Shown piece after piece: positions 6,299-34,984 of a stretch of 64,000 bases of DNA. The stretch comes from Agrobacterium pusense. GTDB lineage: Bacteria > Pseudomonadota > Alphaproteobacteria > Rhizobiales > Rhizobiaceae. The stretch lies in the NCBI RefSeq assembly GCF_900102105.1, contig NZ_FNBB01000012.1, positions 62,001-126,000 on the forward strand, in the 5' to 3' direction. The position numbers were made by a program, and so were the translations under genes. The notes beneath the pieces were generated by a model. That model did no database searches, was not told the origin of the DNA, and saw nothing but the letters and a program-made list of their open reading frames with translations. Numbering within the stretch: position 1 is the stretch's first letter; every line of letters starts with the position of its first letter.

Positions 6299-7015
6299 TT
6301 AGTGCAGCCCACCCACGCCTAGATGCGTATCGATAATATCCGGGTTCTCCACCAGTTCGCTCGACGGTCCGTCCCAGACGATGCGGCCGCGTTCCATGAT
6401 GATGGCGTGGTCGGCGAAGTCGATGGCCATCTGGATGCGTTGTTCGACGAGAAGAATGGTCATTTCGCCGGATTGCGCGAGCTTGGAGAAGGCGGCCATC
6501 AGCTCTTCGCAGATGACGGGGGCGAGGCCTTCGAGCGGTTCATCGAGCAGCAGCACCCGCGGCTGGCCGAGAATGGTGCGGGCGGTGGACAGCATCTGCT
6601 GTTCGCCACCGGAAAGTTGCGAGCCGAGATTGCGGCGGCGCTCCTTGAGGCGCGGAAACAGCGTGTAGGCTTCCTCGATCGCCGATTTCGGTCGCCCCTT
6701 GAGGCCCACGAACAGGTTTTCCTCCACCGTCAGCGTCGGAAACACGTCACGGGTCTGTGGCACGTAACCGAGGCCGGCCTTGGCGCGCGCAGCACTTGGC
6801 AGGGTGCCAATCTCCTGCCCCCCGATGCGGATATCGCCGGAAAAACGCTTCGTCTGGCCGGCCAGCGTGGCGAAGAGGCTTGTCTTGCCGACGCCGTTGC
6901 GGCCGAGCACGGCGAAACGCGAGCCCGATGGCACGGAAAGCGACAGGCCCTCGATGACCCTTGTCGGGCCATAACCGGCCGTGAGGTTGACGATTTCAAG
7001 CGGCGCTGCGGGCAT
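6299..7015 (-). CDS. Branched-chain-type ABC transporter ATPase (LivF type, probable protocatechuate uptake)
   Basis: 238-aa ATPase of the HAAT/LivF class. It has Walker A GRNGVGKTSL, the ABC signature QLSGGEQQMLSTARTIL and Walker B RVLLLDEPLEGLAP. I chose the ATG at 7015 (MPAAPLEIVNLTAGYG), which overlaps the end of the LivG-type gene by 20 bases; the longer open frame has no family match. It is the last of five genes. The promoter of this operon holds a PcaQ box, so the substrate is probably protocatechuate, and the gene would correspond to one of the two ATPases of the Sinorhizobium PcaMNVWX system. Confidence 0.88.
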   Translation of the reverse strand: MPAAPLEIVNLTAGYGPTRVIEGLSLSVPSGSRFAVLGRNGVGKTSLFATLAGQTKRFSGDIRIGGQEIGTLPSAARAKAGLGYVPQTRDVFPTLTVEENLFVGLKGRPKSAIEEAYTLFPRLKERRRNLGSQLSGGEQQMLSTARTILGQPRVLLLDEPLEGLAPVICEELMAAFSKLAQSGEMTILLVEQRIQMAIDFADHAIIMERGRIVWDGPSSELVENPDIIDTHLGVGGLH

Positions 7016-7760
7016 CGGCGTAACTTCCCAGATAGGCTTGGCGGACTTCCGCATTGCTGGTGACATCATCAGGCGAGCCGTCGAAAATGACGGCGCCGGC
7101 GGCCAAAACGACGACGCGCTTGGCAAAACGGAAGACCAGATCCATGTCGTGTTCGATCATCAGGATCGCGAGGTCGGATGGCAGCCGGTCAAGCGCCTGT
7201 TCGATGCGCGCGGTTTCTGTGGAAGGCACGCCGGCGGCAGGTTCGTCGAGCAAGAGGATTTTCGGGCGAAGCGCCATGGCAAGCGCGATCTCGATCAGCC
7301 GCTGCTGGCCATAAGCGATTTCGCGCACCTTTGTTTCGGCGAGGGCCGTGAGGCCAAGCGTGCCGAGAATGTCGCGGGCTTCGCCCATCACGGCAGGCAT
7401 GGCACGGTAACGGCCGAAAATCCGGCCGGTCTTGCCCTCACGCTGGAGAATGGCGAGCGCCACGTGCTCCTCTGGCGTCATGTCCTGAAACAGCCTGGTA
7501 ACCTGGAAGGAACGTACGAGCCCGCGTTTCACGCGCTGGCTGGCGCTGAGGCCCGTCACATCCTCGCCGGCGATGCGCACCGTACCGGCTGACGGTTTGA
7601 TATTGCCGGTGACGAGATTGACAAAGGTCGTCTTGCCGGCGCCATTGGGGCCGATGAGTACCGTCCGGTCTCCCGGCGAAAGCGACAGCGAGACGTTGTT
7701 GGTGACGACGAGGCCGCCGAAATTTTTCTGCAGGCCGGAGACTTCGAAAATGGCGCTCAT
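6996..7760 (-). CDS. Branched-chain-type ABC transporter ATPase (LivG type, probable protocatechuate uptake)
   Basis: 254-aa ATPase with Walker A GPNGAGKTTFVNLVTG, a slightly unusual signature region YGQQRLIEIALAMALRPKILLLDEPAAG (YGQQRL in place of LSGGQ, as is common in LivG proteins), and H-loop MIEHDMDLVFRFA. The C-terminal extension is typical of LivG. The ATG overlaps the permease stop (ATGA), with GGGGAGG upstream. It works with the LivF-type ATPase on the inner face of the membrane. Confidence 0.88.
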   Translation of the reverse strand: MSAIFEVSGLQKNFGGLVVTNNVSLSLSPGDRTVLIGPNGAGKTTFVNLVTGNIKPSAGTVRIAGEDVTGLSASQRVKRGLVRSFQVTRLFQDMTPEEHVALAILQREGKTGRIFGRYRAMPAVMGEARDILGTLGLTALAETKVREIAYGQQRLIEIALAMALRPKILLLDEPAAGVPSTETARIEQALDRLPSDLAILMIEHDMDLVFRFAKRVVVLAAGAVIFDGSPDDVTSNAEVRQAYLGSYADARSAA

Positions 7761-8764
7761 TTGCGACCTCCCCGGAGACGCGCGATGATTTGTTCGCCTG
7801 CGCCATAAAGGCCGCGCGGCGCGAAGAGCACGACGGCGATCAGCAGCAGGCCGACAATGGTGAGCCAGTGAAACGGGTTGGCGGCGGAAACCACGTCTTC
7901 AAACCACATGAAGGTGACGGTGCCGATCAGCGCGCCGTAAAGGGAACCCGCGCCACCGAGCACCAGCATGACCAGCCCCTCGGCCGATAGCGTGAAGCTG
8001 AGGCTGTCCAGGCCGACGACCTGCGTGGAGATGGCGTTAAGCGCACCACCAATGCCGGCGACGATGCCTGAGATAACGAACATCTTCAGGATTGTGCCAT
8101 TGACGGCGCCGCCCATGGCCTGAATGCGGATGCTGTCCTGTTTGACGCCGCGGCACAACATGCCGAAGGGTGAATTGACGACCACCTTTAGGGCGAGGAA
8201 GACGACAAGCAGCAGGCAGACACCATAGATATAGGCGGTGCGGCCGAAGAGGTCGAATTCGAAGGTGCCGAACAGCGCGTCCGGCGAAACGCCGGCAAGA
8301 CCGTCGCTGCCGCCGGTCCAGCCTGAAGCCTTGTTCGCCGCCTCGTGGAACAGGTGGATGACGGCGATGGATAGCACAAGCTGTGGAAGCCCGTGGGCAC
8401 GCAGCAGCACCGCGCCGGAAAGCAGCCCGGCCACGCCGCCCGCTGCCGCGCCGATGACGGTCATGAGAAGCGGGTCGGTGATTTCAAAATGGGCGGCGGC
8501 GATGCCGGCGGCATAAGCGCCGGCGCCGAAGAGGGCGGCATGGCCAAGCGTGGCGACGCCGCAATAACCGGTGACGAGATCGATCGACAGCACCAGAAGC
8601 GCAATGGCTATGATGCGTGTCAGAAGCGCCAGATTATCCGGAAACAGGTAATAACCGGCAACAGCGGCGGCGATGATGAGGAGCGGCCCCGCGAGCGTGC
8701 GCAGCGGTGAGCGCGCCTTCGGAATGTCTGCCGTTTCAGTCACGTCGTTCATGAGCACCGCCAT
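7757..8764 (-). CDS. Branched-chain-type ABC transporter permease (LivM type)
   Basis: 335-aa inner-membrane permease with several hydrophobic helices (for example PLLIIAAAVAGYYLFP and IIAIALLVLSIDLVTGYCGV). It contains the LivM-family cytoplasmic loop (RGVKQDSIRIQAMGGAVNGTILKMFVISG) that contacts the ATPases. I take the ATG at 8764, one base after the LivH-type stop codon; an upstream TTG is less likely. It pairs with the LivH-type permease to form the channel. Confidence 0.87.
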   Translation of the reverse strand: MAVLMNDVTETADIPKARSPLRTLAGPLLIIAAAVAGYYLFPDNLALLTRIIAIALLVLSIDLVTGYCGVATLGHAALFGAGAYAAGIAAAHFEITDPLLMTVIGAAAGGVAGLLSGAVLLRAHGLPQLVLSIAVIHLFHEAANKASGWTGGSDGLAGVSPDALFGTFEFDLFGRTAYIYGVCLLLVVFLALKVVVNSPFGMLCRGVKQDSIRIQAMGGAVNGTILKMFVISGIVAGIGGALNAISTQVVGLDSLSFTLSAEGLVMLVLGGAGSLYGALIGTVTFMWFEDVVSAANPFHWLTIVGLLLIAVVLFAPRGLYGAGEQIIARLRGGRK

Positions 8765-8765
8765 C

Positions 8766-9629
8766 TCATTTCGCCCTTCCAAGAAGGCCGCGCGGGAACA
8801 GCGTGATGATCACGATGACCGCCAGATAAAAGAAGAATTCGCCATATTCGGGCGCAAGATATCGCCCGGTCGTATCGATGGCGCCGAGCAGCAGACAGGC
8901 GATCAACGCGCCGGGAATGGAGCCCGCGCCACCAACGGAAACCACGACCAGAAAGGTGACCATGTAGCGCAGGGCATAATAGGGTTCCACCGGCAGCAGT
9001 TCCGCGCCGATGACGCCGCCCATGGCGGCTAGTCCGACGGCGATGGCGAAGCTGACGGCATAGATGATTTCGGTGCGCACGCCGAGGGCTGCGGCCATGG
9101 CGGCATTATCGACCGCCGCGCGCAGCTTGATGCCGAAGGCGGTCTTTTCAAAGGTGAACCACAGCGCGCCGGCCACGGCAAGACCGCAGACAATGGCGAA
9201 GATGCGGTGGGTGGCGATGGTGCGGAAGCCAAGATCGGTGGGGCCGGCCAGCTGCTGCGGCAGCGGAATGGTCTTCAGCGTCGGGCCGAAAACGAAGTTT
9301 GCGATGCCAATGATGCAGAAGGTGATGCCGATGGTCATCAGCACCTGTGTCAGTTCCGGCGCGCCATAGATGCGGCGATAAAGGAAACGTTCGAGCGGTA
9401 TGGCGATGACGATGGTGCCGACGATCGCGACGAGGATCGCAGCCGCATAACCGAGACCCAGTCCGTGGGCGGCATAGGAGGCGAGATAACCGCCGATCAT
9501 GGCGAAAGCGCCGTGCGCCAGATTGACCACGCGCATCAGCCCCATGGTGACCGAAAGGCCGATGGATATGATGAACAGGACCATGCCATAGGCAAGCGCA
9601 TCGATGAGGATGCTGAAGACCGTCTGCAT
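8766..9629 (-). CDS. Branched-chain-type ABC transporter permease (LivH type)
   Basis: 287-aa permease beginning MQTVFSILIDALAYGMVLFIISIGLSVTMGLMRVVNLAHGAF, the LivH signature. The start is ATG 9629, preceded by GGGAGGAG; the longer frame lacks a family match. It contains the EAA-like loop (RAAVDNAAMAAALGVRTEIIYAV). It follows the binding-protein gene after a 90-base gap with a strong hairpin, a common arrangement that lowers expression of the membrane parts relative to the binding protein. Confidence 0.88.
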   Translation of the reverse strand: MQTVFSILIDALAYGMVLFIISIGLSVTMGLMRVVNLAHGAFAMIGGYLASYAAHGLGLGYAAAILVAIVGTIVIAIPLERFLYRRIYGAPELTQVLMTIGITFCIIGIANFVFGPTLKTIPLPQQLAGPTDLGFRTIATHRIFAIVCGLAVAGALWFTFEKTAFGIKLRAAVDNAAMAAALGVRTEIIYAVSFAIAVGLAAMGGVIGAELLPVEPYYALRYMVTFLVVVSVGGAGSIPGALIACLLLGAIDTTGRYLAPEYGEFFFYLAVIVIITLFPRGLLGRAK

Positions 9630-9676
9630 GATGAAGAAACTCCTCCCGGTGCTGCAATGCCCGTCCGGGCCGGAAA

Positions 9677-9697
9677 CGGGCCGCCACTGGCGGCCCG
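9677..9697 (-). terminator. Intra-operon hairpin after the binding-protein gene
   Basis: CGGGCCGCC-act-GGCGGCCCG is a perfect 9-base stem just downstream of the substrate-binding-protein stop. There is no T-run, so it more likely stabilises the upstream message or attenuates than ends transcription. Confidence 0.5.
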
Positions 9698-9719
9698 GCA
9701 ATATTGTCCTGTCTGGCCG

Positions 9720-10892
9720 TTACTTCGCGGCGGCGAGACCCGGATCGCCCTGTTTTTCGAAGGTCTGGACTTCCTTGTTGTAATAGCTGCCGTCATCGGC
9801 CTTGGCTACTTCGCGCAGATAGATGTTCTGCGTGATGTGGCGGCTTTCCGGGTCGATGCTGACCGGGCCGCGCGGGCTTGTCCAGGAAAGGCCCTTGACT
9901 GCCTCAACCGCCTTTTCCGCATCCTGCTTGCCGCCAGTGGCCTCGATCATCTTGCTGATGACATACATGCCGTCAAAGGCGCCGACGGAAGGGAAGGAGA
10001 GTTCCTTCGGATTGCCGATTGCCTTGGTTGCGGCTTCCACGAAGGTCTTGTTCTCGGGTGAATCATGCGAGATGGCATAATGGAAGGTCGTCTGCATGCC
10101 GAGTGCGGCTTCCCCGAGCGCCGGCAGGTCGGATTCCTGCGTCAGATCACCCGGCGCGAAGAGCTTGACGCCTGCGGATTTCAGGCCGTTGTCGTTGAAG
10201 GCCTTGACGAAACCGAGCGTGGTCGGGCCCGATGGCAGGAAGGCGAAAACACCCTGTGCGCCGGAATCCTTCACACGTTGCATGATGGGACTGAAATCAT
10301 TGGTGGAAAGCGGCATGCGGATGGTTTCAACCACTTCGCCGCCGGCAGCGGTGAAGGCCGCCTTGAAAGCATTTTCGGCATCGACGCCCGGGCCATAATC
10401 GCTGACCAGTGAGATGACCTTCTTCACGCCGCCGTCAAAGGCCACCTTGGCGATGGGGGTGGAAGTCTGCCAGGTGGTGAACGACGTGCGCACCACATAG
10501 GGGCTCTTGGTCACGATGGCCGAGGTGGCGGCATTCATGACCACCATCGGCACGTTGCCCTGCTTCAGCAGGGGTGTGACGGCCATGGCGTCAGGGGTAA
10601 AATAGAAGCCGGCAAGATATTGCACGCCTTCCTTCACCACCAGATCCTGCGCCAGTGCCTTGGATTGCGCCGGATCGGCCTGCGGCACATCGCGATAGAC
10701 GACCTCCACCGTGTCATTGCCGACCTTGTTGCCGTGAAGGGCAAACCAGGCATCGATGCCGGCCTTGAAGTTCTTGCCCTGCAGCGCAAACGGGCCGGAG
10801 AACGGGCCGACAACGCCCACCTTGATCGTTTCTGCATAAGCGGCAGAGCTGAAACAGATGGCCGCTATCGCCACGGTGATCCGAAATTTCAT
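9720..10892 (-). CDS. Periplasmic substrate-binding protein, LivK type (probable protocatechuate binding, PcaM-like)
   Basis: 390-aa periplasmic binding protein with a signal peptide (MKFRITVAIAAICFSSAAYA, cut before ETIKVG) and a Peripla_BP_6 fold (VGVVGPFSGPFALQGKNFKAG near the N-terminus). Start ATG 10892 follows GGAGGAAACC. It is the first gene of the five-gene operon. The promoter carries ATAACC-TGAC-GGTTAT, matching the PcaQ box, and a five-gene HAAT-type transporter under PcaQ control is known in Sinorhizobium as pcaMNVWX. I therefore infer protocatechuate or a similar hydroxybenzoate as the ligand; the sequence alone would only say branched-chain amino-acid family. Confidence 0.82.
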   Translation of the reverse strand: MKFRITVAIAAICFSSAAYAETIKVGVVGPFSGPFALQGKNFKAGIDAWFALHGNKVGNDTVEVVYRDVPQADPAQSKALAQDLVVKEGVQYLAGFYFTPDAMAVTPLLKQGNVPMVVMNAATSAIVTKSPYVVRTSFTTWQTSTPIAKVAFDGGVKKVISLVSDYGPGVDAENAFKAAFTAAGGEVVETIRMPLSTNDFSPIMQRVKDSGAQGVFAFLPSGPTTLGFVKAFNDNGLKSAGVKLFAPGDLTQESDLPALGEAALGMQTTFHYAISHDSPENKTFVEAATKAIGNPKELSFPSVGAFDGMYVISKMIEATGGKQDAEKAVEAVKGLSWTSPRGPVSIDPESRHITQNIYLREVAKADDGSYYNKEVQTFEKQGDPGLAAAK

Positions 10893-11231
10893 GGTTTCCT
10901 CCAAATTCGCCTGTGGCTCCCATCCACCGGTCCAGGCTGCCAGATTGATGATTAAGAATATCAAAGTAAAATGAAATAAGGGGGGTAATAAATAACCTGA
11001 CGGTTATCAATACCGCGTCTTTGACGCCTTGCCCATATCGGATCGGGAAATCAGCCCGGCGCCTGCCCCTTTTTCAGCTCCACATCGCCTTGGTCTTCGC
11101 GGTCTAACAGTTCGGGGCAAATGTCGCCTGCAACCGCGCGACCGGCCGTCCCGCAACCAGAGCTTTAACCAGTTCTAAGGGGATTTTTCGTAGTCTCCCC
11201 AAGCATATTTAGAACGTTATTTGGTGTCTTG
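10893..11231. promoter_or_regulatory. Intergenic promoter region with PcaQ box (10992-11007)
   Basis: Divergent intergenic region between the LivK-type gene (minus) and a small unknown gene (plus). It holds ATAACC-TGAC-GGTTAT at 10992-11007, matching ATAACC-N4-GGTTAA, the PcaQ site described in Sinorhizobium meliloti, at 11 of 12 fixed positions. The box is about 100 bases upstream of the binding-protein start codon. Apart from a GC-rich stretch around 11060-11160 I see nothing else. Confidence 0.75.
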
Positions 11232-21430: not shown

Positions 21431-21448
21431 TGTACTGATTGGTTAATA
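21431..21448. promoter_or_regulatory. Candidate TetR operator in the quiC/TetR intergenic region
   Basis: TGTACTGATTGGTTAATA lies in the 73-base gap between the divergent quiC and TetR genes. A related sequence, TGTACCAGTTAGTTCATT, lies upstream of the quinate/shikimate transporter at 26812-26829: 12 of 18 bases agree and most differences are transitions. Its core ACTGATTGGT is a partial palindrome of the ACYRRYYRGT type that TetR proteins often bind. Binding is inferred. Confidence 0.5.
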
Positions 21449-21481
21449 AGCAGGGCGTGACCGCAGGCCGCCGCCCCACCG

Positions 21482-22189
21482 ATGGAATGGATGATGACCA
21501 AAACTGCGACTTTGAACGCGACCCGAGAAAGCCGGCAGGCGAAGCGTGATCCGGAAGGGGTTCGCCGCGACATTCTTTCGGTGGCCATGGAAGAGTTTTC
21601 GCAAAACGGCCTCTCCGGCGCCCGCATCGATGAAATAGCGGCGCGCACGCGCACGTCCAAGCGCATGATCTATTATTATTTCACCGACAAGGAGAGCCTT
21701 TACCAGCGCGTTCTGGAGGAGGCTTATGCCAAGGTGCGCGGCGGCGAGAGCGATCTGGAGCTCGATGATTTGGAACCGGCTGCGGCGCTCGACAAGCTCT
21801 GTCGGTTCACCTTCGATCACCACCGGCGCAATCCCGCTTTCATTCGCATGGTGATGATCGAGAACATCCATCACGGCCGGCACATGCAGTCCTCCGAAAC
21901 GATCCGCCAGCTCAACCGTCCGGCCATCGATGCGCTGGAAAGCGTGCTGCTGCGAGGCCAGCAGAGCGGCGTCTTCCGCGAGGGCATCGATGCGCTGGAA
22001 TTGCACTGGCAGATCAGCGCGCTGTCCTTTTTCAACGTCTCGAATGTCACGACGTTCTCGTTCATCTTCGGCGACAGCCTGTTCACCGATGCGGGACAGG
22101 AGACATTGTCGCGGCATGTCAGCGACATGGTGCTGCGTTATGTGCTGACGCCCGCCCATATCACGACGAGCGCGAAAGACGGCCAATGA
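21482..22189 (+). CDS. TetR-family regulator, probable quinate/shikimate regulator
   Basis: 235 aa. The N-terminal TetR helix-turn-helix is clear ([55 protein letters not shown]), followed by a TetR_C ligand-binding domain. It is divergent from quiC and convergent with aroQ (ends overlap by 29 bases), so it most likely controls quinate/shikimate genes. The exact start is uncertain: ATG codons at 21482, 21491 and 21494 are all possible and none has a strong ribosome site. Confidence 0.85.
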
Positions 22190-22604
22190 GGTGGCGCAGC
22201 GCCACTTCATAACCTTCGATGCCGAGGCCGGCGATCACGCCTTCGGCGCGGGTCGAGACATAGGAGTGGTGCCGGAAGACCTCGCGCTTGTGGATGTTGG
22301 AAATGTGAACCTCGATCACCGGCCCCTCAAAGGCATTGAGCGCATCGAGGATGGCCACCGACGTATGGGTAAAGGCGCCGGGGTTGATGGCGATGCCTGC
22401 GGATTTGCCGCGGGCTTCGTGAACCCAGTCGATCAGCTCATATTCCCGGTTGCTCTGGGCAAAAAACAGTTCGTGGCCGGCGGTTTCTGCGATCCCGCGG
22501 CAACGGGACTCGATGTCAGCGAGCGTTTCATAGCCGTAGATTTCCGGCTGGCGCTGGCCGAGCAGGTTGAGGTTCGGGCCGTTGAGGATGGTGAAAAGAC
22601 TCAT
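22161..22604 (-). CDS. aroQ: Type II 3-dehydroquinate dehydratase AroQ
   Basis: 147-aa type II enzyme that interconverts 3-dehydroquinate and 3-dehydroshikimate. The family motifs are all present: [17 protein letters not shown] with the catalytic tyrosine, [12 protein letters not shown]-type loop ([13 protein letters not shown]), [18 protein letters not shown]. The ATG at 22604 overlaps the aroE stop (ATGA) with GGAGGGGG upstream. Type II enzymes are reversible and suit breakdown as well as synthesis; the operon partners (aroE, an importer, with quiC nearby) point to a catabolic role. Confidence 0.93.
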
Positions 22605-23470
22605 GCCACCCCCTCCGCCATGCACAGCTCGGTGAAATGTGCGGTCATACGCGCAGCGTCCGGCTCGCGGCCGCAGAAGAGGCGGAATGCGCCAACGGCC
22701 TGAAACACCGTCATGCCGCCGCCGGGCAGGGTGCGACAGCCCTTTTTCGCCGCCGTCGCCAGCAACTCGGTCACGAGCGGCATGTAGACGATATCGGCCA
22801 CCCAGTGTCGTTGTTCGATCAGGGCGGCCGAAACCGGCATGCCGGGATGGGCGGGCATGCCCATTGGCGTGGCGTGGATCAGGCCATCGGCAAAGGGCAG
22901 GGAAGCGGCCGGGTCGCCAACGGCAAAGGCGCGCCCTTCTCCGAACCGGTCGTTGAGTTCGCTCGCCAGGCGCTCGGCCCGGGGCAAATCGCGATCGAAA
23001 ATATCGAGTCTCATAATATCGAGCTTCAGGGCGGCATGGGCGACAGCCACACCGGCGCCGCCTGCGCCGACCAGCAGCGCCCGATCACGCTTTGCATCCG
23101 GCAGGCCGCGCACGAAGCTTTCGTAAAAGCCGTACCAGTCGGTGTTATGGCCAATGCGGCGGCCGTCGCGGAAGACGACGGTATTGACCGCTCCAAGCAT
23201 GCGGGCGTCGTCAGAAAGTTCGTGCAGATGCGCGATGACGGCCTGTTTGAACGGATGGGTGATATTGGTGCCGGCAAAACGGCGCGCCTCCAGCTCATCG
23301 AGCAGATCGGGAAGGGCGCTCAGGGGCAATTTGCGGGCGGAGACATCCACCAGCTCATAAGAATAGTCGAGACCATGGGCTGCTCCCTCGCGCATATGCA
23401 GCGCGGGTGACTTGGATAGCTGGATATCGGCGCCTATCAGGCCGACCTTGAATGCGGTTTTGTCTGTCAT
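22601..23470 (-). CDS. Shikimate/quinate dehydrogenase, AroE family
   Basis: 289 aa. The shikimate-site motif [14 protein letters not shown], the catalytic lysine in NITHPFKQ and NTDWYGF are all present, followed by the nucleotide-binding loop [14 protein letters not shown]. After the second strand the sequence is [13 protein letters not shown]: an Asp where NADP-using AroE has an Asn/Arg-rich patch, which suggests NAD as cofactor and a catabolic quinate/shikimate dehydrogenase. I chose ATG 23470 ([13 protein letters not shown]); the longer frame is intergenic repeat. It is coupled to aroQ. Confidence 0.88.
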
Positions 23471-23550
23471 GATCTCGGGTCGTTCATCTGTTCGGCGGCG
23501 GGCATCGCCTGCCTTCGGGTTGCTGGCGAGGTGATGAAACCTCGCCGTCG

Positions 23551-23625
23551 TCATCCTCGGGCCTGATCCCGGGGATCTGTCATCCGCTGGCTCCATTGAT
23601 CCCCGGGCCTGTCCCGGGGATGACG
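23551..23625. repeat. Short mosaic repeat, copy F (terminal palindromes only)
   Basis: GTCATCC...GGATGAC ends enclose two palindromes of the CCCGGGCCTGATCCCGGG kind, pointing towards each other, with 20 bases of spacer. It looks like the terminal modules of copies A-E without the two inner hairpins. It lies between the transporter ATPase gene and aroE, inside the operon. Confidence 0.65.
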
Positions 23626-23673
23626 CTGTCTCTGCGGGGGAGGTCGCCAAGAGTTCCCCGCGGAGCGCGAACC

Positions 23674-24435
23674 TCAATGATGGGCGAGAATTTCGCCAAG
23701 GAACGTGCGGGTACGCTGGTGCTTGGGATCGCGGAAGAATTCCTCCGGGGGGCCTTCCTCGATGATCTCGCCTTCCGACATGAAGACCACGCGGTCGGCC
23801 ACCTGCCGGGCGAAACCCATTTCATGCGTCACGCAGATCATCGTCATGCCGTCGCGGGCAAGACCGATCATGGTGTCGAGCACTTCCTTCACCATTTCCG
23901 GATCGAGGGCCGAGGTCGGTTCGTCGAACAGCATCGCCTTCGGTTCCATACACAGCGCCCGCGCAATCGCCGCGCGCTGCTGCTGGCCGCCGGAAAGCTG
24001 GGCGGGGTACTTGTCGGCCTGGTTGAGAATGCGCACGCGCTCCAGATATTTGCGTGCCGTCGCCTCCGCATCGGCCTTCGACAGGCCTTTCACCCGCATG
24101 GGCGCCAGCGTGCAGTTTTCCATGATGGTCTTGTGCGGGAAGAGATTGAAGCTCTGGAACACCATTCCCACTTCGCGCCGAACCGCATCGATGGCGCGGC
24201 TGGAATCCGAAAGCATGGTTCCCTCCACTGTAATCTTGCCCTCCTGAATCTCCTCCAGATGGTTGATGCAGCGAATGAGGGTGGATTTGCCCGAACCGGA
24301 CGGGCCGCAAAGAACGATCTTCTCGCCCTTGCGAACCGTCATGTTGACATTTTTAAGCGCGTGGTAGGCTCCATACCACTTTCCGACCCCTTCAAGGGCG
24401 ATAAGCGGAACCTGTGCGGCGGCGGATTGCGGCAT
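23674..24435 (-). CDS. Polar-amino-acid-type ABC transporter ATPase (probable quinate/shikimate uptake)
   Basis: 253-aa GlnQ-type ATPase: Walker [19 protein letters not shown], signature [15 protein letters not shown], Walker [16 protein letters not shown]-loop [12 protein letters not shown] 24435 follows GGAGGTTTCC. By sequence it belongs to the PAAT amino-acid family. It sits in one operon with aroE and aroQ and shares a candidate operator with quiC, so I infer quinate, shikimate or a related cyclic acid as the imported compound. Confidence 0.88.
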
Positions 24436-24448
24436 GGAAACCTCCAGA

Positions 24449-25288
24449 TTACTTCACGGTGAAGGGGATGTCGGGAAGGCTGTCCGGGAAGGCCGGCACT
24501 TCGCGCTTCATCCATTTGTCGTAAATCTTGGCGAGCTGACCGTCCGACTTGATCTTGTCGAGGAAGGCGTTGACGGTTTCGTTCCAGTCCTTCTCGCCTG
24601 GGCGGGTGCCGGCGCCGTTATACATGGTCGTCAGTTCGAACTTTGATTCGTACTTGCCCTCGGCGGCCTTGTTCAGCCGGTCGCCGTAGAACATGTTGCC
24701 GCCCACGGCTTCGACCTGGCCCGATATCAGCGCCTGAATATTGGCGGCGTCGTCATCGAAGCGCAGGATATTGGCTTTGGAGCCGGCACCGGCAGTAATC
24801 GCCGTGTCCATGGCGCTCGACTTCGGCACGCCGACATTGATGCCGGTCAGATCATCGTAACCGGCGATCTTCTTGTCCTTGGGGGCATAGACGGAAAACA
24901 CGTTGCCGACATAGGGCTTCGAATACTGGATGCTCTTGGCGCGCTCGGCGGTCATGGCCATGGTGGCGAAGAGCACGTCGACCTTGCCGGTCAGCAGCGC
25001 CGGGATGCGGTTTGCGACGGCGAGCGGCACGAACTCGGCCTTGACGCCGAGATAGTCCGCGAAGGCCTTGCCGATATCGGCATCGAGACCATCCTGCACG
25101 CCGCTGGAATTCACGAAGCCCCAGGGCGAATTATCACCCTGAATGCCGATGACGACCTTGCCCTTGGCCTTTGCCTCTTCAACGGTCCCGGCGAAAGCAT
25201 CGCCCGGTGTCACGAAAGGCAGCGCAACCGTTGCCGCGGCGAGCGCGAGCAGGGCGCGACGCGAGAATTTCATGCTGGTGGTTTTCAT
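24449..25288 (-). CDS. Polar-amino-acid-type ABC transporter binding protein (probable quinate/shikimate binding)
   Basis: 279-aa SBP_bac_3 protein. Signal peptide with a Tat-like [25 protein letters not shown]. The fold motifs are [37 protein letters not shown] and [30 protein letters not shown]. In amino-acid binders of this family an Arg after TxTxxR binds the carboxylate; here the segment reads [10 protein letters not shown] with the Arg kept, which also suits a carboxylated cyclitol. GAGGAGCAAAAG precedes ATG 25288. Confidence 0.88.
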
Positions 25289-25330
25289 CTTTTGCTCCTC
25301 CTTACAAAGCTGATGAGATGGTTTTGACGT

Positions 25331-25981
25331 TTAACGGGACGCGGCCTGCAGCCGCTTTTCGACGCCGGCGCCCCACAGGGAGAGCGGCCAGCAGATCAGG
25401 AAATAGATGATGCCGACGAGGGCGAAGACGGTGAGCGGGCGGAACGTCTGGTTGGAGACGATCTGTCCGGCGCGGGAGAGCTCGACGAAACCCACGATCG
25501 CCGCAAGCGAGGTGCCCTTGATGAGCTGCACGAGGAAACCGATGGTGGCTGGCAGTGAAATCTTGAGGGCCTGCGGCAGGATCACATCCTTCATGCGTGA
25601 GACGTAATGCAGGCCGAGCGCATTGGCCGCTTCCGTCTGCCCCTTCGGCACAGCCTGGATGCCGCCGCGCCAGATTTCACCCAGAAAGGCGCTGGCATGC
25701 AGCGTGAAGGCGATGGCAACGGCGATCCAGGCATCGACATTGAGGCCGGCGAGCGCCACGCCGTAATAAACGACGAAAAGCTGCATCAGGAGCGGCGTGC
25801 CCTGGAAGATGGCGATGTAGGCCGTGCTTGCCCGCTGGATTGCCGGGCTGTCCGCAACGCGGGCGAGCGCCACGCAAAGGCCGAAAATGCCGCCGCCGAT
25901 AAAGCCGATGATGGTCAGCGCAAGGGTCCATTTCAGACCCTGCAGCAGGAAGAAGAGTTCGTTGGGACCGATGGATGCCAT
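25331..25981 (-). CDS. Polar-amino-acid-type ABC transporter permease 2
   Basis: 216-aa HisMQ/GlnP-type permease (KWTLALTIIGFIGGGIFGLCVALARV; EAANALGLHYVSRMKDVILPQALKISLPATIGF EAA loop). It starts at ATG 25981 behind GGAGAAAAG. It forms the membrane channel with the permease at 25994-26662. Confidence 0.9.
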   Translation of the reverse strand: MASIGPNELFFLLQGLKWTLALTIIGFIGGGIFGLCVALARVADSPAIQRASTAYIAIFQGTPLLMQLFVVYYGVALAGLNVDAWIAVAIAFTLHASAFLGEIWRGGIQAVPKGQTEAANALGLHYVSRMKDVILPQALKISLPATIGFLVQLIKGTSLAAIVGFVELSRAGQIVSNQTFRPLTVFALVGIIYFLICWPLSLWGAGVEKRLQAASR

Positions 25982-25993
25982 TGTCTTTTCTCC

Positions 25994-26662
25994 TCACTTG
26001 ACCGGATAGCTGAAGGAAAGGCGGGAGATGAGCGAGAAGACGGCCATCATCAGCGAGGAAATGACGAGATAAAGCAGCGTGATCGAGAAATAGACCTCGA
26101 AGGATCGGAACGTATCCGCCTCGATCTTCTGCGCGACCGAAGTCAGCTCGTAAGCGGCGATCGAAGTGCAGACAGACGTCGTCAGCGTCAGCATGATGAA
26201 CTGGCTGGTGAGTGACGGATAGACCGCGCGCAACGCCGGCTTCAGGATAATATGGCGGAAGATCTGCGCCCGGTGCAGGCCGAGCGCGAGGCCCGCTTCC
26301 ACCTGGCCCTTGGGGATGGAATCGACCCCGCCTCGAATGATTTCAATGGCGTAGGCGCCACCGTTCAGGGCCAGCGCAATGATGGCGGTGACGGTGGGAT
26401 TGAGCTTGATGCCGATCTGCGGCAGGGCGAAGAAGATGAAGAATATCTGCACCAGAAACGGCGTATTGCGGATGGCTTCCACAAAGCCGATGACGATGCC
26501 GCGCAGCAGCCTGAAACGCGAGCGTCGGGCGACAACCCCGAGAACCCCGATGACGGTGGCAAGCGACATGCCGGCAATGGCAAGGCCGATCGTCGCCAGA
26601 CAGGCTAAAAGCAGCTCGGGCAGCCGGTCTATGACCGCTGAGAAATCGAGACTGTAAGACAT
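25994..26662 (-). CDS. Polar-amino-acid-type ABC transporter permease 1
   Basis: 222-aa HisMQ-type permease, starting MSYSLDFSAVIDRLPELLLACLATIGLAIAGMSLATVIG at ATG 26662 behind GGGAGGAAG. The EAA loop reads EAGLALGLHRAQIFRHIILKPALRAVYP. It is the first gene of the six-gene operon permease-permease-binding protein-ATPase-aroE-aroQ; the candidate operator at 26812 lies 150 bases upstream. Confidence 0.9.
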   Translation of the reverse strand: MSYSLDFSAVIDRLPELLLACLATIGLAIAGMSLATVIGVLGVVARRSRFRLLRGIVIGFVEAIRNTPFLVQIFFIFFALPQIGIKLNPTVTAIIALALNGGAYAIEIIRGGVDSIPKGQVEAGLALGLHRAQIFRHIILKPALRAVYPSLTSQFIMLTLTTSVCTSIAAYELTSVAQKIEADTFRSFEVYFSITLLYLVISSLMMAVFSLISRLSFSYPVK

Positions 26663-26811
26663 TCTTCCTCCCAACCCCTTCGGGTCCGGACAGGCTTTGC
26701 GCCTTGTCCGCATCGCTCTGGAACCGTGCGGCGCCAAAGCCCTCCATTTGTCGATTTTTGCCGCTGCGGGCTTCGAACCCTCGTCGGCGGCGTCTCGTTA
26801 ATCTTAATGTT

Positions 26812-27003: not shown

Positions 27004-28092
27004 CTATGGAAGATGGCGATCGCCCTGAGGCTCGTTTTCGCCTGCGCCCAACCTGTCTATCTGTCCCGCCAACCGCTCGGCGATCAGCAGCGAGGCTCCC
27101 GTTGCCGTCACCATTTGTGGGAGCGACAGCCATTCCAGCATCCAGCCCGCGCCGGACCTTTCCTGTTCGTGCACAAGCGACTGGTGCAACGCCGATATGT
27201 GCACGGCATTGAAGCGCGCGAGCGTCACCAGCGTTTCGGCATTGACCGGGTTTTGTTTGTGCGGCATGGCCGAGGAACCGCCGCCTCCGGAGAGGCGGAT
27301 TTCCGTGCCAAGTTCGGCCATGAGCGCGATGTCCTGCCCGAACTTGCCGAGCGTGCCCGTGATCAGCGAAAGCAGACCGGAAAATTCGGCGATGCCGTCG
27401 CGCTGGCTTTGCCATTGTGGCCGATCCGCAAGGCCGAGGCGCCTTGCCAGATCGATGCGCACGGCTGCGGCATTGTCACCGAGCTTTTCGAGCGTGCCGG
27501 CCGCGCCGCCGAATTGCAGGGCGAAACCGGTCTGCGCGAAGCTCTGGAGCCGCAGCAAATGGCGCTCCAGCGGTGAAATCCAGCTTGCCGCCCGATCGGC
27601 GACCGTGATGCCGATCGCGGCCTGCATGCGGGTATAGCCCGTCAACGGATTATGGCCGTCGCGGGAGGCGAGATCTCCCAGCGTATCGACGAGACGCCCG
27701 AGCCGCATGGCGATGATTTCCGCCGCCATTTTCAGCCGCAGCATCAGGCTGGTATCGATGACATCCTGGCTGGTCGCGCCGAAATGCACCTTGTCCGCTG
27801 CCTTGCCGGCGACCGCCGCCCGCATCTGCCGGATGAGTTCGGGAACCACAACGCCGTCCTTTGCGACGCCGTGGCGAAGGGCGGTGATGTCGGCGGCAAA
27901 GTCCGACAGGCCTGAGACAATCGCTTGTGCCACCTCATCCGCAAGGATGCCAGCCTCCGCCTCCGCCTCCGCCAGCGCCGCTTCGAAACGGATCATGGCG
28001 TCGATATCCGCCCTTGCCGAAAACAGCTCGACGATTTCGCTGTCGCCGAAAAGGCCTGAGAGGAAAGGGTGCTCGAAGGGGGAAAGGCTCAT
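27004..28092 (-). CDS. pcaB: 3-carboxy-cis,cis-muconate cycloisomerase PcaB
   Basis: 362 aa of the fumarase/aspartase superfamily. It closes 3-carboxymuconate to 4-carboxymuconolactone. The signature GGGGSSAMPHKQNPVNAETL is present, as is the upstream FGATSQDVIDTS. ATG 28092 gives MSLSPFEHPFLSGLFGD. It is the last gene of pcaDCHGB and is followed by a strong terminator. The length is close to bacterial PcaB proteins of rhizobia, shorter than the 450-aa Pseudomonas form. Confidence 0.92.
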   Translation of the reverse strand: MSLSPFEHPFLSGLFGDSEIVELFSARADIDAMIRFEAALAEAEAEAGILADEVAQAIVSGLSDFAADITALRHGVAKDGVVVPELIRQMRAAVAGKAADKVHFGATSQDVIDTSLMLRLKMAAEIIAMRLGRLVDTLGDLASRDGHNPLTGYTRMQAAIGITVADRAASWISPLERHLLRLQSFAQTGFALQFGGAAGTLEKLGDNAAAVRIDLARRLGLADRPQWQSQRDGIAEFSGLLSLITGTLGKFGQDIALMAELGTEIRLSGGGGSSAMPHKQNPVNAETLVTLARFNAVHISALHQSLVHEQERSGAGWMLEWLSLPQMVTATGASLLIAERLAGQIDRLGAGENEPQGDRHLP

Positions 28093-28160
28093 CGTCCGTC
28101 TCGCTTTCTTTTGCGCATATCGTTGTCGCAAAACCGCTGCACACTTTTGCGCGATATGCG

Positions 28161-28781
28161 TCAGATATCGAAAAACACGGTTTCGCCTTCGCCCTGCAGA
28201 CGGATATCGAAACGATAGACGTTGCCTTCTTCCTTTTTGGCGACAAGCGTGGCGATGCGGCTTTTCTGCTCGATGCGGGCGAGAACGGGATCGGCGGCAT
28301 TGGCCTCCTGTTCTTCCGGGAAATACATACGGGTCTGCAGGCCGATATTGATGCCGCGCGCGACGATCCAGAAGGTGATGTGCGGCGCCATCGGCCGACC
28401 GTCGCGGAACGGCACCGAGCCGGGCTTGATGGTTTCGAAGACGAATTCGCCCGTATCCATGTCACCGGGCGAGCGGCCCCAGCCGATGAAATTCGGATCG
28501 GCCTTGCCGCGCGTTTCGCTCGGGCTGTTGTAATAGCCGTCGGTATCGGCCTGCCATATCTCGATCAGCGCATCCTTGAGCGGCATGCCGGCGCCGTCAT
28601 AGACCGTGCCGCGCACGCTGATGCGCTCGCCGCGGGCCTTGTCGTTATAAAGCGGGCCGGAACCGAGATCCTTCTCGAACACGCCTTCGATGCCGACGAA
28701 ATTCGGTGTGCAGCCGATATGCACATAGGGCCCTGCCGTCTGTGAGGCGGTTTCCTTGAAATAGTTGAGCGGCTGAACCAT
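28161..28781 (-). CDS. pcaG: Protocatechuate 3,4-dioxygenase alpha subunit PcaG
   Basis: 206 aa. Intradiol dioxygenase fold without the iron ligands that the beta subunit supplies. Motifs: QTAGPYVHIGC, GTVYDGAGMPLKDALIEIWQADTDGYYNSP, PHITFWIVARGINIGLQTRMYF. With PcaH it opens the protocatechuate ring between the hydroxyls to give 3-carboxy-cis,cis-muconate. It begins two bases after pcaH. Confidence 0.94.
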   Translation of the reverse strand: MVQPLNYFKETASQTAGPYVHIGCTPNFVGIEGVFEKDLGSGPLYNDKARGERISVRGTVYDGAGMPLKDALIEIWQADTDGYYNSPSETRGKADPNFIGWGRSPGDMDTGEFVFETIKPGSVPFRDGRPMAPHITFWIVARGINIGLQTRMYFPEEQEANAADPVLARIEQKSRIATLVAKKEEGNVYRFDIRLQGEGETVFFDI

Positions 28782-28783
28782 GG

Positions 28784-29955
<1,172 letters not shown>

Positions 29956-29958
29956 CGG

Positions 29959-30756
29959 TCAATGCTCCGGCAAGGTCTTGAGAAAAATGCACGCGGCCTG
30001 CGCGTAGGCGAGTGGCTGTTCAAGGCAGGGAATGTGGCCGCAGCCGGCGATTGTTACAAAGCGGCTTGCGGGAATGAGGTCTGCCAGCGATTTTACCAGT
30101 TCCGGCGGTGTCGAGCCGTCCTGATCGCCCACGACACAAAGCGTCGGCACGGCAATGCGCCCGGCGGCAGCGGTAAAATCCGCATCGCGGATGGCGGCGC
30201 AAGTGCCGCTGTAACCGGCTTCCGGCTGCTGCGCCAGCATGTTGCGTGCGCCGGCATAGGCGGCATTGTCAGGCGTGCGGAAGGCGGGCGTGAACCAGCG
30301 CTCCATGACGGGATCGACTAGCGAGCCGAGGCCATCGGCAGAGATTTTGTCGATGCGGGCGTTCCACATGTCGGCCGTGCCGATCTTGTGAGCGGTATTG
30401 CTGAGCACGAGTGCGCGGACGAGATCGGGCCGGCGGGCATAAAGCCCCTGGGCAATCAGGCCGCCGACGGACAGTCCCCAGATGACGGCACTTTTCACGC
30501 CGAGATGATCGAGCAGCGCGATCAGGTCACCGGCATGGTCGTCGATCGAATAGGGTGGGCAACCGATATCGGAAAGCCCGTGGCCACGCTTGTCGTGCAG
30601 CACGTAGGCATAGTCATCGCCAAGCACCTCGGTCACCGCATCCCAGATGCGGAAATCCGTACCGAGCGAATTGATGAAGGCGATGACCGGCTTGCCGCTG
30701 TCCAATCCCTTGACGCGATAATGGATCACGGTCTCGCCGCAGCGCAGAAAATGCAT
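29959..30756 (-). CDS. pcaD: Beta-ketoadipate enol-lactone hydrolase PcaD
   Basis: 265-aa alpha/beta hydrolase. The catalytic triad is visible: Ser in WGLSVGGLIAQ, Asp in VVGDQDGSTP and His in GCGHIPCLEQP. It hydrolyses the enol-lactone to beta-ketoadipate. ATG 30756 (MHFLRCGETVIHYRV) is behind GGAGGAGCC; the frame extends further but without family match. It is the first gene of pcaDCHGB, divergent from pcaQ, with a PcaQ box between. Confidence 0.93.
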   Translation of the reverse strand: MHFLRCGETVIHYRVKGLDSGKPVIAFINSLGTDFRIWDAVTEVLGDDYAYVLHDKRGHGLSDIGCPPYSIDDHAGDLIALLDHLGVKSAVIWGLSVGGLIAQGLYARRPDLVRALVLSNTAHKIGTADMWNARIDKISADGLGSLVDPVMERWFTPAFRTPDNAAYAGARNMLAQQPEAGYSGTCAAIRDADFTAAAGRIAVPTLCVVGDQDGSTPPELVKSLADLIPASRFVTIAGCGHIPCLEQPLAYAQAACIFLKTLPEH

Positions 30757-30826
30757 GATGGCTCCTCCTGCCGGGGATATTGCAAGCGGGTTCCGGTTAA
30801 GTAAAATGACATTATCGATGAAAATC

Positions 30827-30842
30827 ATAACCACTGGATTAT
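30827..30842. promoter_or_regulatory. PcaQ binding site in the pcaD-pcaQ intergenic region
   Basis: ATAACC-ACTG-GATTAT fits the PcaQ consensus ATAACC-N4-GGTTAA at 10 of 12 fixed positions and lies about 70 bases upstream of pcaD and just before the pcaQ start, as described for the pcaD promoter of Agrobacterium and Sinorhizobium. Confidence 0.75.
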
Positions 30843-30849
30843 ACGAGCG

Positions 30850-31791
30850 ATGGTCGACCAGCGTATCAAGTTCCGCCACCTGCAGACCTTCGTGGAGGTT
30901 GCGCGGCAGAAAAGCGTCATCCGTGCCGCCGAAATCCTGCATGTCAGCCAGCCGGCGGTGACAAAAACGATCCGCGAACTGGAAGAGATTCTGGGTGTCT
31001 CGCTATTTGACCGCGAGGGTCGCGGCATTCGCATCAGCCGCTACGGCGAGGTTTTCCTGCGCCACGCCGGCGCGACGATGACGGCGTTGCGACAGGCGGT
31101 CGATTCGGTTTCGCAGGAGGCGGCGCGCGCCGGTCCCCCGGTGCGGGTGGGTGCTCTGCCCACGGTTTCGGTCCGCATCATGCCGAAGGCGATGGCTGGT
31201 TTTCTGGCGGAAAAGACCGGCAGCCCGGTGAAGATCGTGACGGGCGAAAACGCCGTTCTGCTGGAGCAGCTGCGGGTCGGCGATCTCGATCTCGTCGTCG
31301 GCCGTCTCGCGGCGCCGCAGAAGATGGCCGGGTTTTCCTTCGAGCATCTCTATTCGGAAAGGGTGCGCTTCGTGGTGCGGGCTGGCCACCCGCTTCTGTC
31401 GCCCGGTGTTTCGGTGTTCGATCACCTGCATGAATATCCGGTGCTGATGCCCACACGGCAGTCCGTCATCGGTCCTGTCGTGGAACAGTTTTTGATCGCC
31501 AACGGTGTTCCGGCCCTGCCGATTCGCATCGAAACCGTATCCGACGCCTTCGGCCGCGCCTTTCTGCGCACCAGCGACGCGATCTGGATCATCTCGGAGG
31601 GCGTGGTGGCGGCGGATGTGGCGGACGGCATCCTCGAAATTCTGCCGGTCGAGACCGGCGATACCAGCGGGCCGGTGGGACTGACGGTCCGGGCCGATAC
31701 GCAGCCCTCGCTGCCGCTTTCGCTGCTGATGCAGGCCATACGTGAGGCGGCGGGCGAGTTGCTGGATGGGAGGGCGGAGGCTGGTTCTTGA
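30850..31791 (+). CDS. pcaQ: LysR-type activator PcaQ
   Basis: 313 aa. The LysR helix-turn-helix covers about residues 8-65 (FRHLQTFVEVARQKSVIRAAEILHVSQPAVTKTIRELEEILGVSLFDREGRGIRIS); an inducer domain follows. PcaQ activates the pca operon with beta-carboxymuconate and carboxymuconolactone as co-inducers. The gene is divergent from pcaD. A PcaQ box also occurs before the LivK-type transporter gene, giving it a second target here. Confidence 0.92.
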   Translation: MVDQRIKFRHLQTFVEVARQKSVIRAAEILHVSQPAVTKTIRELEEILGVSLFDREGRGIRISRYGEVFLRHAGATMTALRQAVDSVSQEAARAGPPVRVGALPTVSVRIMPKAMAGFLAEKTGSPVKIVTGENAVLLEQLRVGDLDLVVGRLAAPQKMAGFSFEHLYSERVRFVVRAGHPLLSPGVSVFDHLHEYPVLMPTRQSVIGPVVEQFLIANGVPALPIRIETVSDAFGRAFLRTSDAIWIISEGVVAADVADGILEILPVETGDTSGPVGLTVRADTQPSLPLSLLMQAIREAAGELLDGRAEAGS

Positions 31792-31991: not shown

Positions 31992-34205
<2,214 letters not shown>

Positions 34206-34951
34206 ACGGACAGAAGTGCAGGCAAATATCGCTCCACCAGATCATCCATCGAAGCGACCGAGGCGGCGAGCCCGACATTCAGTGCGGCAACCGTTTGGCC
34301 ACGCACGCTTTTCAGCGGCACGGCGATGGAGCGAAGGCCGATTTCGACTTCCTGATCGATCAACGCATAACCGCGATGGCCGGTCACCTCGATTTCGGTG
34401 AGCAAGGCCTGAATATCAGTAATGGTTTTTTCCGTGCGGGCGACCAGCCGGGAGGCTTCGAGAATGTCGCGCTGGCGTTCGGGCGGCTGAGCGGAAAGAA
34501 GAACACGGCCCATGGAGGTGCAATAGGCGGGCAGGCGCGACCCCGGCATCAGCGCAATGGACATGACCCGCTGCTGGGCGGCGCGGGCCACATAAACGAT
34601 TTCGGTTTCGTCCAGGATAGAGACGGAGGTGCTCTGGCCGATCTCCTCCGAAAGGCGATCGATGAGCGGCTGGACGATTTTGGGAAGCGGCATGGTGGCG
34701 AGGCAGCCGGTTCCGAGCCGCAGCACCTTCGGCGTGACGGTAAAGAACTTGCCGTCATAGGCGGCATAACCAAGCTCCGATAGCGTGAGCAGGCAGCGGC
34801 GTGTGGTGGCGCGGTCCAGTCCGGCGATCTCGGCGGCATCGGAGATGGAAAGCCGCGGCCGCTCGGCGCTGAAGGCTTCGATCACGCGCAATCCCTTGGC
34901 GAGACCGCCCATCATGTCTCTTTCATTGACGGCCATGGCTCCGCTCCATTT

Positions 34952-34984
34952 GTGCGATATACGAACAAAAATCATATAACGCAC
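34952..34984. promoter_or_regulatory. PcaR operator(s) upstream of pcaI
   Basis: On the minus strand 34966-34952 reads GTTCGTATATCGCAC, 12 of 15 bases identical to GTTCGATAATCGCAC, the site reported for Pseudomonas PcaR. A second, weaker half (ATCATATAACGCAC) lies at 34971-34984, so two sites may be arranged in tandem. It is between pcaR and pcaI. Confidence 0.7.

Follow-up and report, generated by a model that had tools for sequence, protein, structure and literature searches.

The five genes at positions 6299-10892 of the DNA analysed here, a 64,000-nucleotide stretch of Agrobacterium pusense that we call the window, can with considerable confidence be named the Agrobacterium pcaMNVWX operon. 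Judged from its sequence, it very probably encodes a PcaQ-controlled ABC importer for protocatechuate, a plant-derived phenolic acid, and probably for close hydroxybenzoates. A likely protocatechuate importer with a PcaQ box was what an initial annotation had proposed, and the proposal is supported by collinear orthologs, the placement of the box, a PcaQ with 73% identity to that of Sinorhizobium meliloti and a binding protein of the hydroxybenzoate type. The pcaMNVWX system has already been described in relatives, and its identification with the window operon as the Agrobacterium counterpart is well supported. An operon that by its domains would be labelled a transporter of branched-chain amino acids or urea gains a specific name and a proposed substrate, and a candidate uptake step is supplied for phenolic-acid catabolism in Agrobacterium.

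Genes of the operon and of the protocatechuate pathway

The operon is read leftward from 10892 to 6299, with its five genes on one strand and the last four contiguous or overlapping. pcaM (9720-10892, minus strand, 390 aa) encodes a periplasmic binding protein whose N-terminus, judged by eye, resembles a signal peptide. It is followed on the same strand by the permease genes pcaN (8766-9629, 287 aa) and pcaV (7757-8764, 335 aa) and the ATPase genes pcaW (6996-7760, 254 aa) and pcaX (6299-7024, 241 aa, GTG start assumed). One Peripla_BP_6 domain (PcaM), two BPD_transp_2 domains (PcaN, PcaV) and two ABC_tran domains (PcaX and PcaW, the latter also with BCA_ABC_TP_C) were found, in agreement with the earlier remark that by domains the five genes look like a branched-chain amino-acid transporter. 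On a quick PcaM tree the protein clusters with PcaM of Agrobacterium tumefaciens-group strains; the source genome comprises 5.28 Mb in 28 contigs.

Aligned with PcaMNVWX of S. meliloti 1021 (pSymB), all five proteins match in the same order and on the same strand over most of their length, with identities of 85, 85, 73, 74 and 72%. The S. meliloti operon (SMb20568 to SMb20784) is reported to encode a PcaQ-regulated, protocatechuate-inducible ABC transporter (MacLean et al., 2011, via passages of PMC4495286 and PMC5002191), in line with the earlier statement that such a PcaQ-controlled system is known in this species. We found ATAACCGGGGGATTAT upstream of the pSymB operon. PMC5002191, citing MacLean et al., 2011, describes this sequence as the mutagenesis-supported binding site for PcaQ in front of pcaMNVWX, and its presence ties our comparison to the characterised S. 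meliloti operon.

The pca genes and pcaQ, which the initial annotation had placed 16 kb away, were indeed found about 16 kb off, at 27004-31791, and PcaQ, PcaD, PcaH, PcaG and PcaB all passed their NCBIfam cut-offs. The minus strand carries pcaB (27004-28131; NF004631 and TIGR02426; start codon unsettled), pcaG (28161-28781; TIGR02423), pcaH (28784-29524; TIGR02422) and pcaD (29959-30735; TIGR02427; true start near 30735, unsettled). The LysR-type regulator gene pcaQ lies on the plus strand (30850-31791; TIGR02424, 459 bits against a cut-off of 304), and the N-terminal DNA-binding part of its product is well conserved with respect to S. meliloti PcaQ. Between pcaD and pcaQ we found a second PcaQ-type box, ATAACCACTGGATTAT (30827-30842, 11 of 12 fixed bases), which ends 7 bases before the pcaQ ATG and whose half-sites are those of the S. 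meliloti pcaM site.

Further genes of note lie around this cluster. pobA, for 4-hydroxybenzoate 3-monooxygenase, occupies 31992-33164 on the minus strand (TIGR02360 above cut-off). Adjoining it is a gene for an AraC-type regulator (33282-34205, plus strand; HpaA model below cut-off), in a position like that of pobR (atu4545) in A. tumefaciens. At 34175-34984 on the minus strand lies a PcaR/PcaU/PobR-family regulator above cut-off. On the way from the transporter to the pca genes, the region 22161-26737 encodes a type II dehydroquinate dehydratase, a shikimate-dehydrogenase-like protein and an ABC transporter with a family 3 binding protein, and resembles an uptake-and-entry cluster for quinate/shikimate or the like. 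A 255-aa ORF adjoining the dehydratase gene (21443-22210) gave no NCBIfam match at E 0.001.

In the mechanism we propose, PcaM would capture protocatechuate in the periplasm, PcaN and PcaV would form the channel, PcaW and PcaX would hydrolyse ATP, and the pca enzymes inside the cell would cleave the ring and break it down. With its gene about 20 kb off, PcaQ would bind the palindrome at 10992-11007 and activate the operon. For PcaQ of Agrobacterium, carboxymuconate and carboxymuconolactone are the reported effectors and the pcaDCHGB genes a reported target of activation (PMC12288460). We infer that this control extends to pcaMNVWX, with PcaQ binding and induction in the present strain as well. 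As PcaQ answers ring-cleavage intermediates and would activate the operon, the first turnover of substrate would raise uptake.

No PcaK-type (AAHS) protein exceeds the TIGR00895 cut-off in the strain's own genome, where 31 weak matches reach at best 184 of 419 bits; matches in 14 control genomes also lay below this cut-off, which was thus never seen to fire. The pca cluster of A. fabrum is reported to be without pcaK, and the best PcaK-like gene there, at 29% identity, is not induced by 4-hydroxybenzaldehyde (PMC12288460, 2025). With no PcaK-type match above cut-off and an A. fabrum cluster without pcaK, pcaMNVWX is the leading uptake candidate among the transporter classes considered.

The binding protein and its probable substrates

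Sequence and model comparisons both assign PcaM to the hydroxybenzoate-binding rather than the leucine-binding type. In phmmer searches it matched 4evs and 4f06 with E-values of 6e-154 and 1e-152, against 1e-7 for the leucine-specific binding protein 1usg and 2e-11 for Thermotoga LivK 3td9. An AlphaFold2 model built from 32 sequences (mean pLDDT 87) aligned with 4f06 and 4evs at a Z of 55 (54.8) and 64% identity over 368 residues. A grouping with leucine/isoleucine binders had been named, together with a lack of PcaQ binding or protocatechuate induction, as what would speak against protocatechuate import; we found 15-22% identity to leucine binders, and PcaM falls with the hydroxybenzoate binders.

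The entry 4evs is titled as R. palustris RPA0985 with 4-hydroxybenzoate, and the next structures, at 42-44% identity, carry vanillic acid and p-hydroxybenzoic acid in their titles. The titles of the nearest solved structures thus name 4-hydroxybenzoate or vanillate and none names protocatechuate. The entry 4eyk, which shares the sequence of 4ey3, we take to be a protocatechuate complex. In a thermal-shift screen, 4-hydroxybenzoic acid is reported to stabilise RPA0985 by 29.5 C (PMC3223731). A pcaM mutant of R. leguminosarum reportedly grows poorly on protocatechuate and like the wild type on 4-hydroxybenzoate; in that species protocatechuate is reported as an inducer of pcaM and 4-hydroxybenzoate as an inducer of the operon (PMC4495286). 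From the ligands of the relatives together with growth and induction in R. leguminosarum, protocatechuate emerges as the best-supported physiological substrate, and a wider hydroxybenzoate range is likely.

Gene context was surveyed in 80 named loci. They are the top-ranking 80 among 303 relatives, a choice that favours close ones. All 80 have the four downstream genes with pcaM, on the same strand and within 5 kb. Within 2.5 kb upstream of pcaM, pcaB was present in 20 loci, pobA in 34 and neither, as in the window, in 26. The importer might instead serve mainly 4-hydroxybenzoate (perhaps vanillate), with protocatechuate secondary and PcaQ control notwithstanding. We consider this unlikely, although the titles of RPA0985 and of the 42-44% structures, the 34 loci with pobA directly upstream and the 4-hydroxybenzoate induction reported for R. 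leguminosarum all point that way, because the R. leguminosarum mutant is impaired on protocatechuate and not on 4-hydroxybenzoate, the operon follows pcaB in 20 loci and the operator is of the PcaQ type. Protocatechuate import under PcaQ control is the reading that we retain.

The PcaQ-type box and its conservation

The predicted PcaQ-type operator of pcaMNVWX, ATAACCTGACGGTTAT (10992-11007), is an exact palindrome with perfect inverted half-sites, and its centre lies 107 bases ahead of the pcaM ATG. The box matches ATAACC-N4-GGTTAT at 12 of 12 fixed bases. The 11 of 12 counted in the initial annotation holds for ATAACC-N4-GGTTAA, a form that the S. meliloti pcaQ/pcaD box shows and that we take to be the published PcaQ consensus, whereas the palindromic form is matched exactly. 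The exact pattern occurs once in the window and in none of 100 dinucleotide shuffles; allowing up to two mismatches gave three matches in the window, a number reached by none of the 100 shuffles. The 5.28 Mb genome contains no exact copy other than 10992-11007. If up to one mismatch is tolerated, it has four sites in all versus six for a reversed control pattern, so that enrichment of the 11/12 motif was rejected as evidence; a match of this grade means little by itself, and location and conservation carry the argument. Of the two one-mismatch sites outside the window, one lies inside a MetQ-type methionine-binding-protein-like gene with a permease adjoining, and the other is flanked by genes for a TetR-like regulator and an oxidoreductase-like protein; by eye, nothing among the ORFs around either resembles pca genes. 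A plasmid search with the 148-base promoter gave no match.

Among 21 close loci, the window's own included, the box matches at 12 of 12 bases in 20 and at 11 of 12 in one, and it is centred at -106 to -108 before pcaM in all of them. When these promoters (20 distinct sequences) are aligned, the 12 fixed bases of the box show no variation except at one, where a single row deviates, whereas among the first 175 columns, a gappy stretch more distant from pcaM, not one position is invariant. The operator is thus conserved in place while the neighbouring upstream DNA drifts. All 21 genomes have pcaQ 11 to 22 kb off on the same contig. Seven further genomes of the genus, with a PcaM of 83-85% identity, have best boxes of only 7 to 11 of 12, and their pcaQ is either on a different contig or no closer than 126 kb. 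Boxes may be weaker where the operon is unlinked to pcaQ, a tie that is no more than suggestive, as the seven genomes may be close kin. The genomes and loci compared are related, and the counts are not independent.

It is very unlikely that the palindrome arose by chance and that the operon is under other control. The lack of genomic enrichment of 11/12 matches and the boxes of 7 to 11 of 12 in the seven unlinked genomes would fit such a view, but it is at odds with the exact box that 20 of the 21 close loci have in the same place amid drifting DNA, and with the mutagenesis-supported orthologous site of S. meliloti (PMC5002191). Phyletic co-occurrence was set aside as weak support. A PcaM of at least 83% identity is present in 28 of 37 genomes of the genus (own included), in each case together with pcaQ and pcaH, yet both of these genes also occur in eight of the nine genomes without it; presence of pcaQ and pcaH does not require the pcaMNVWX transporter.

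Across the 80 loci, the highest-scoring site within 250 bases upstream of pcaM reaches at least 9 of 12 in 66, of which 59 have it at -136 to -100; in 21 loci it falls below 9 of 12 or outside this interval. By comparison, at least 9 of 12 was reached by 0.7% of 52-base and 4.4% of 250-base stretches in a random control (8,000 stretches of the same loci, 100 per locus, true sites left in). The pobA-linked loci divide by the gap between pobA and pcaM: 21 of the 34 have a gap of 162-399 bases and a box in it (9-11 of 12), and 13 have a gap of 64-132 bases and no box (best 5-7 of 12), the nine shortest gaps being too short for a box at the usual distance, so that a short gap and a missing box are not fully separate observations. 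The short-gap loci are L052, L055, L057, L059, L063, L065, L069, L078, L080, L092, L098, L110 and L116. In the 300 bases before pobA, scanned in all 34 pobA-linked loci, there was no PcaQ-type box (best 6-8 of 12). On the quick PcaM tree, in which 35 of 79 inner branches are poorly supported, the short-gap state needs four changes, and strongly supported branches force only one. These observations suggest that control of the transporter can shift from PcaQ to the promoter of pobA. A broader picture, which we offer tentatively, is that of a general hydroxybenzoate importer whose control has moved from one regulator to another. With its own PcaQ box it would follow protocatechuate turnover; in some lineages of Rhizobium and Neorhizobium it would have joined a pobA-pcaMNVWX transcription unit, given up the box and come to follow the pobA promoter and hence 4-hydroxybenzoate; and in Agrobacterium it would be the missing uptake step for phenolic acids of plants.

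Naming of the operon and comparison with known systems

The best NCBIfam models for the operon proteins are of the Liv and Urt types, and the listed ones, which for both ATPases are the best 25 of about 180 families, all stay below their curated cut-offs. This applies to LivJ/K (66 of 477 bits), LivH (67.5 of 379), LivM (56 of 366), LivG (202.5 of 362) and LivF (157.5 of 441) as well as to UrtA (82 of 493), UrtB (154 of 250), UrtC (117 of 296), UrtD (195 of 304) and UrtE (232 of 286), and automatic naming of the operon would therefore be generic. A true branched-chain amino-acid or urea importer with a coincidental pca link is scarcely credible, since the Pfam domains and best models that favour it are offset by these missed cut-offs, by the distance of PcaM from leucine binders relative to RPA0985 and by pcaB or pobA directly upstream in 54 of the 80 relatives.

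In the literature covered, pcaMNVWX is named, as far as the passages considered show, for S. meliloti or for R. leguminosarum (PMC4495286, PMC5002191). Among the matches listed for PcaQ, PcaM and Agrobacterium in titles and abstracts there is no account of the operon in Agrobacterium, which MacLean et al., 2011 may nevertheless have predicted, and PMC12288460 on A. fabrum mentions neither 'ABC transporter' nor 'branched-chain'. In the main text of another paper on Agrobacterium, the words 'transport' and 'ABC' do not occur.

With R. palustris RPA0985 (4evs; PMC3223731) the comparison concerns the binding protein, which is 64% identical to PcaM (Z 54.8 over 368 residues) and differs in having been solved with 4-hydroxybenzoate. 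R. leguminosarum 3841 is reported to have the five homologous genes (RL3906-RL3910), with pcaM needed for normal growth on protocatechuate, a pcaM mutant that is less competitive in pea nodule infection and a site predicted by MacLean et al., 2011 (all according to PMC4495286). Its operon differs in being chromosomal, adjoining a predicted 4-hydroxybenzoate hydroxylase gene and lying away from the pca genes of pRL11. The closest counterpart is that of S. meliloti, with the same gene order, five orthologs at 72-85% identity and a PcaQ-type box upstream. Both have pcaQ, pcaD, pcaH, pcaG and pcaB on the same flank of the transporter, and in both the pcaQ/pcaD region carries an 11/12 box, ATAACCACTGGATTAT in the window and ATAACCTCCTGGTTAA in S. 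meliloti. The two differ in that the window box is a perfect palindrome and in that pcaB lies about 8 kb from pcaM in S. meliloti, whereas in the window about 16 kb, with other genes between, separate the operon from pcaB.
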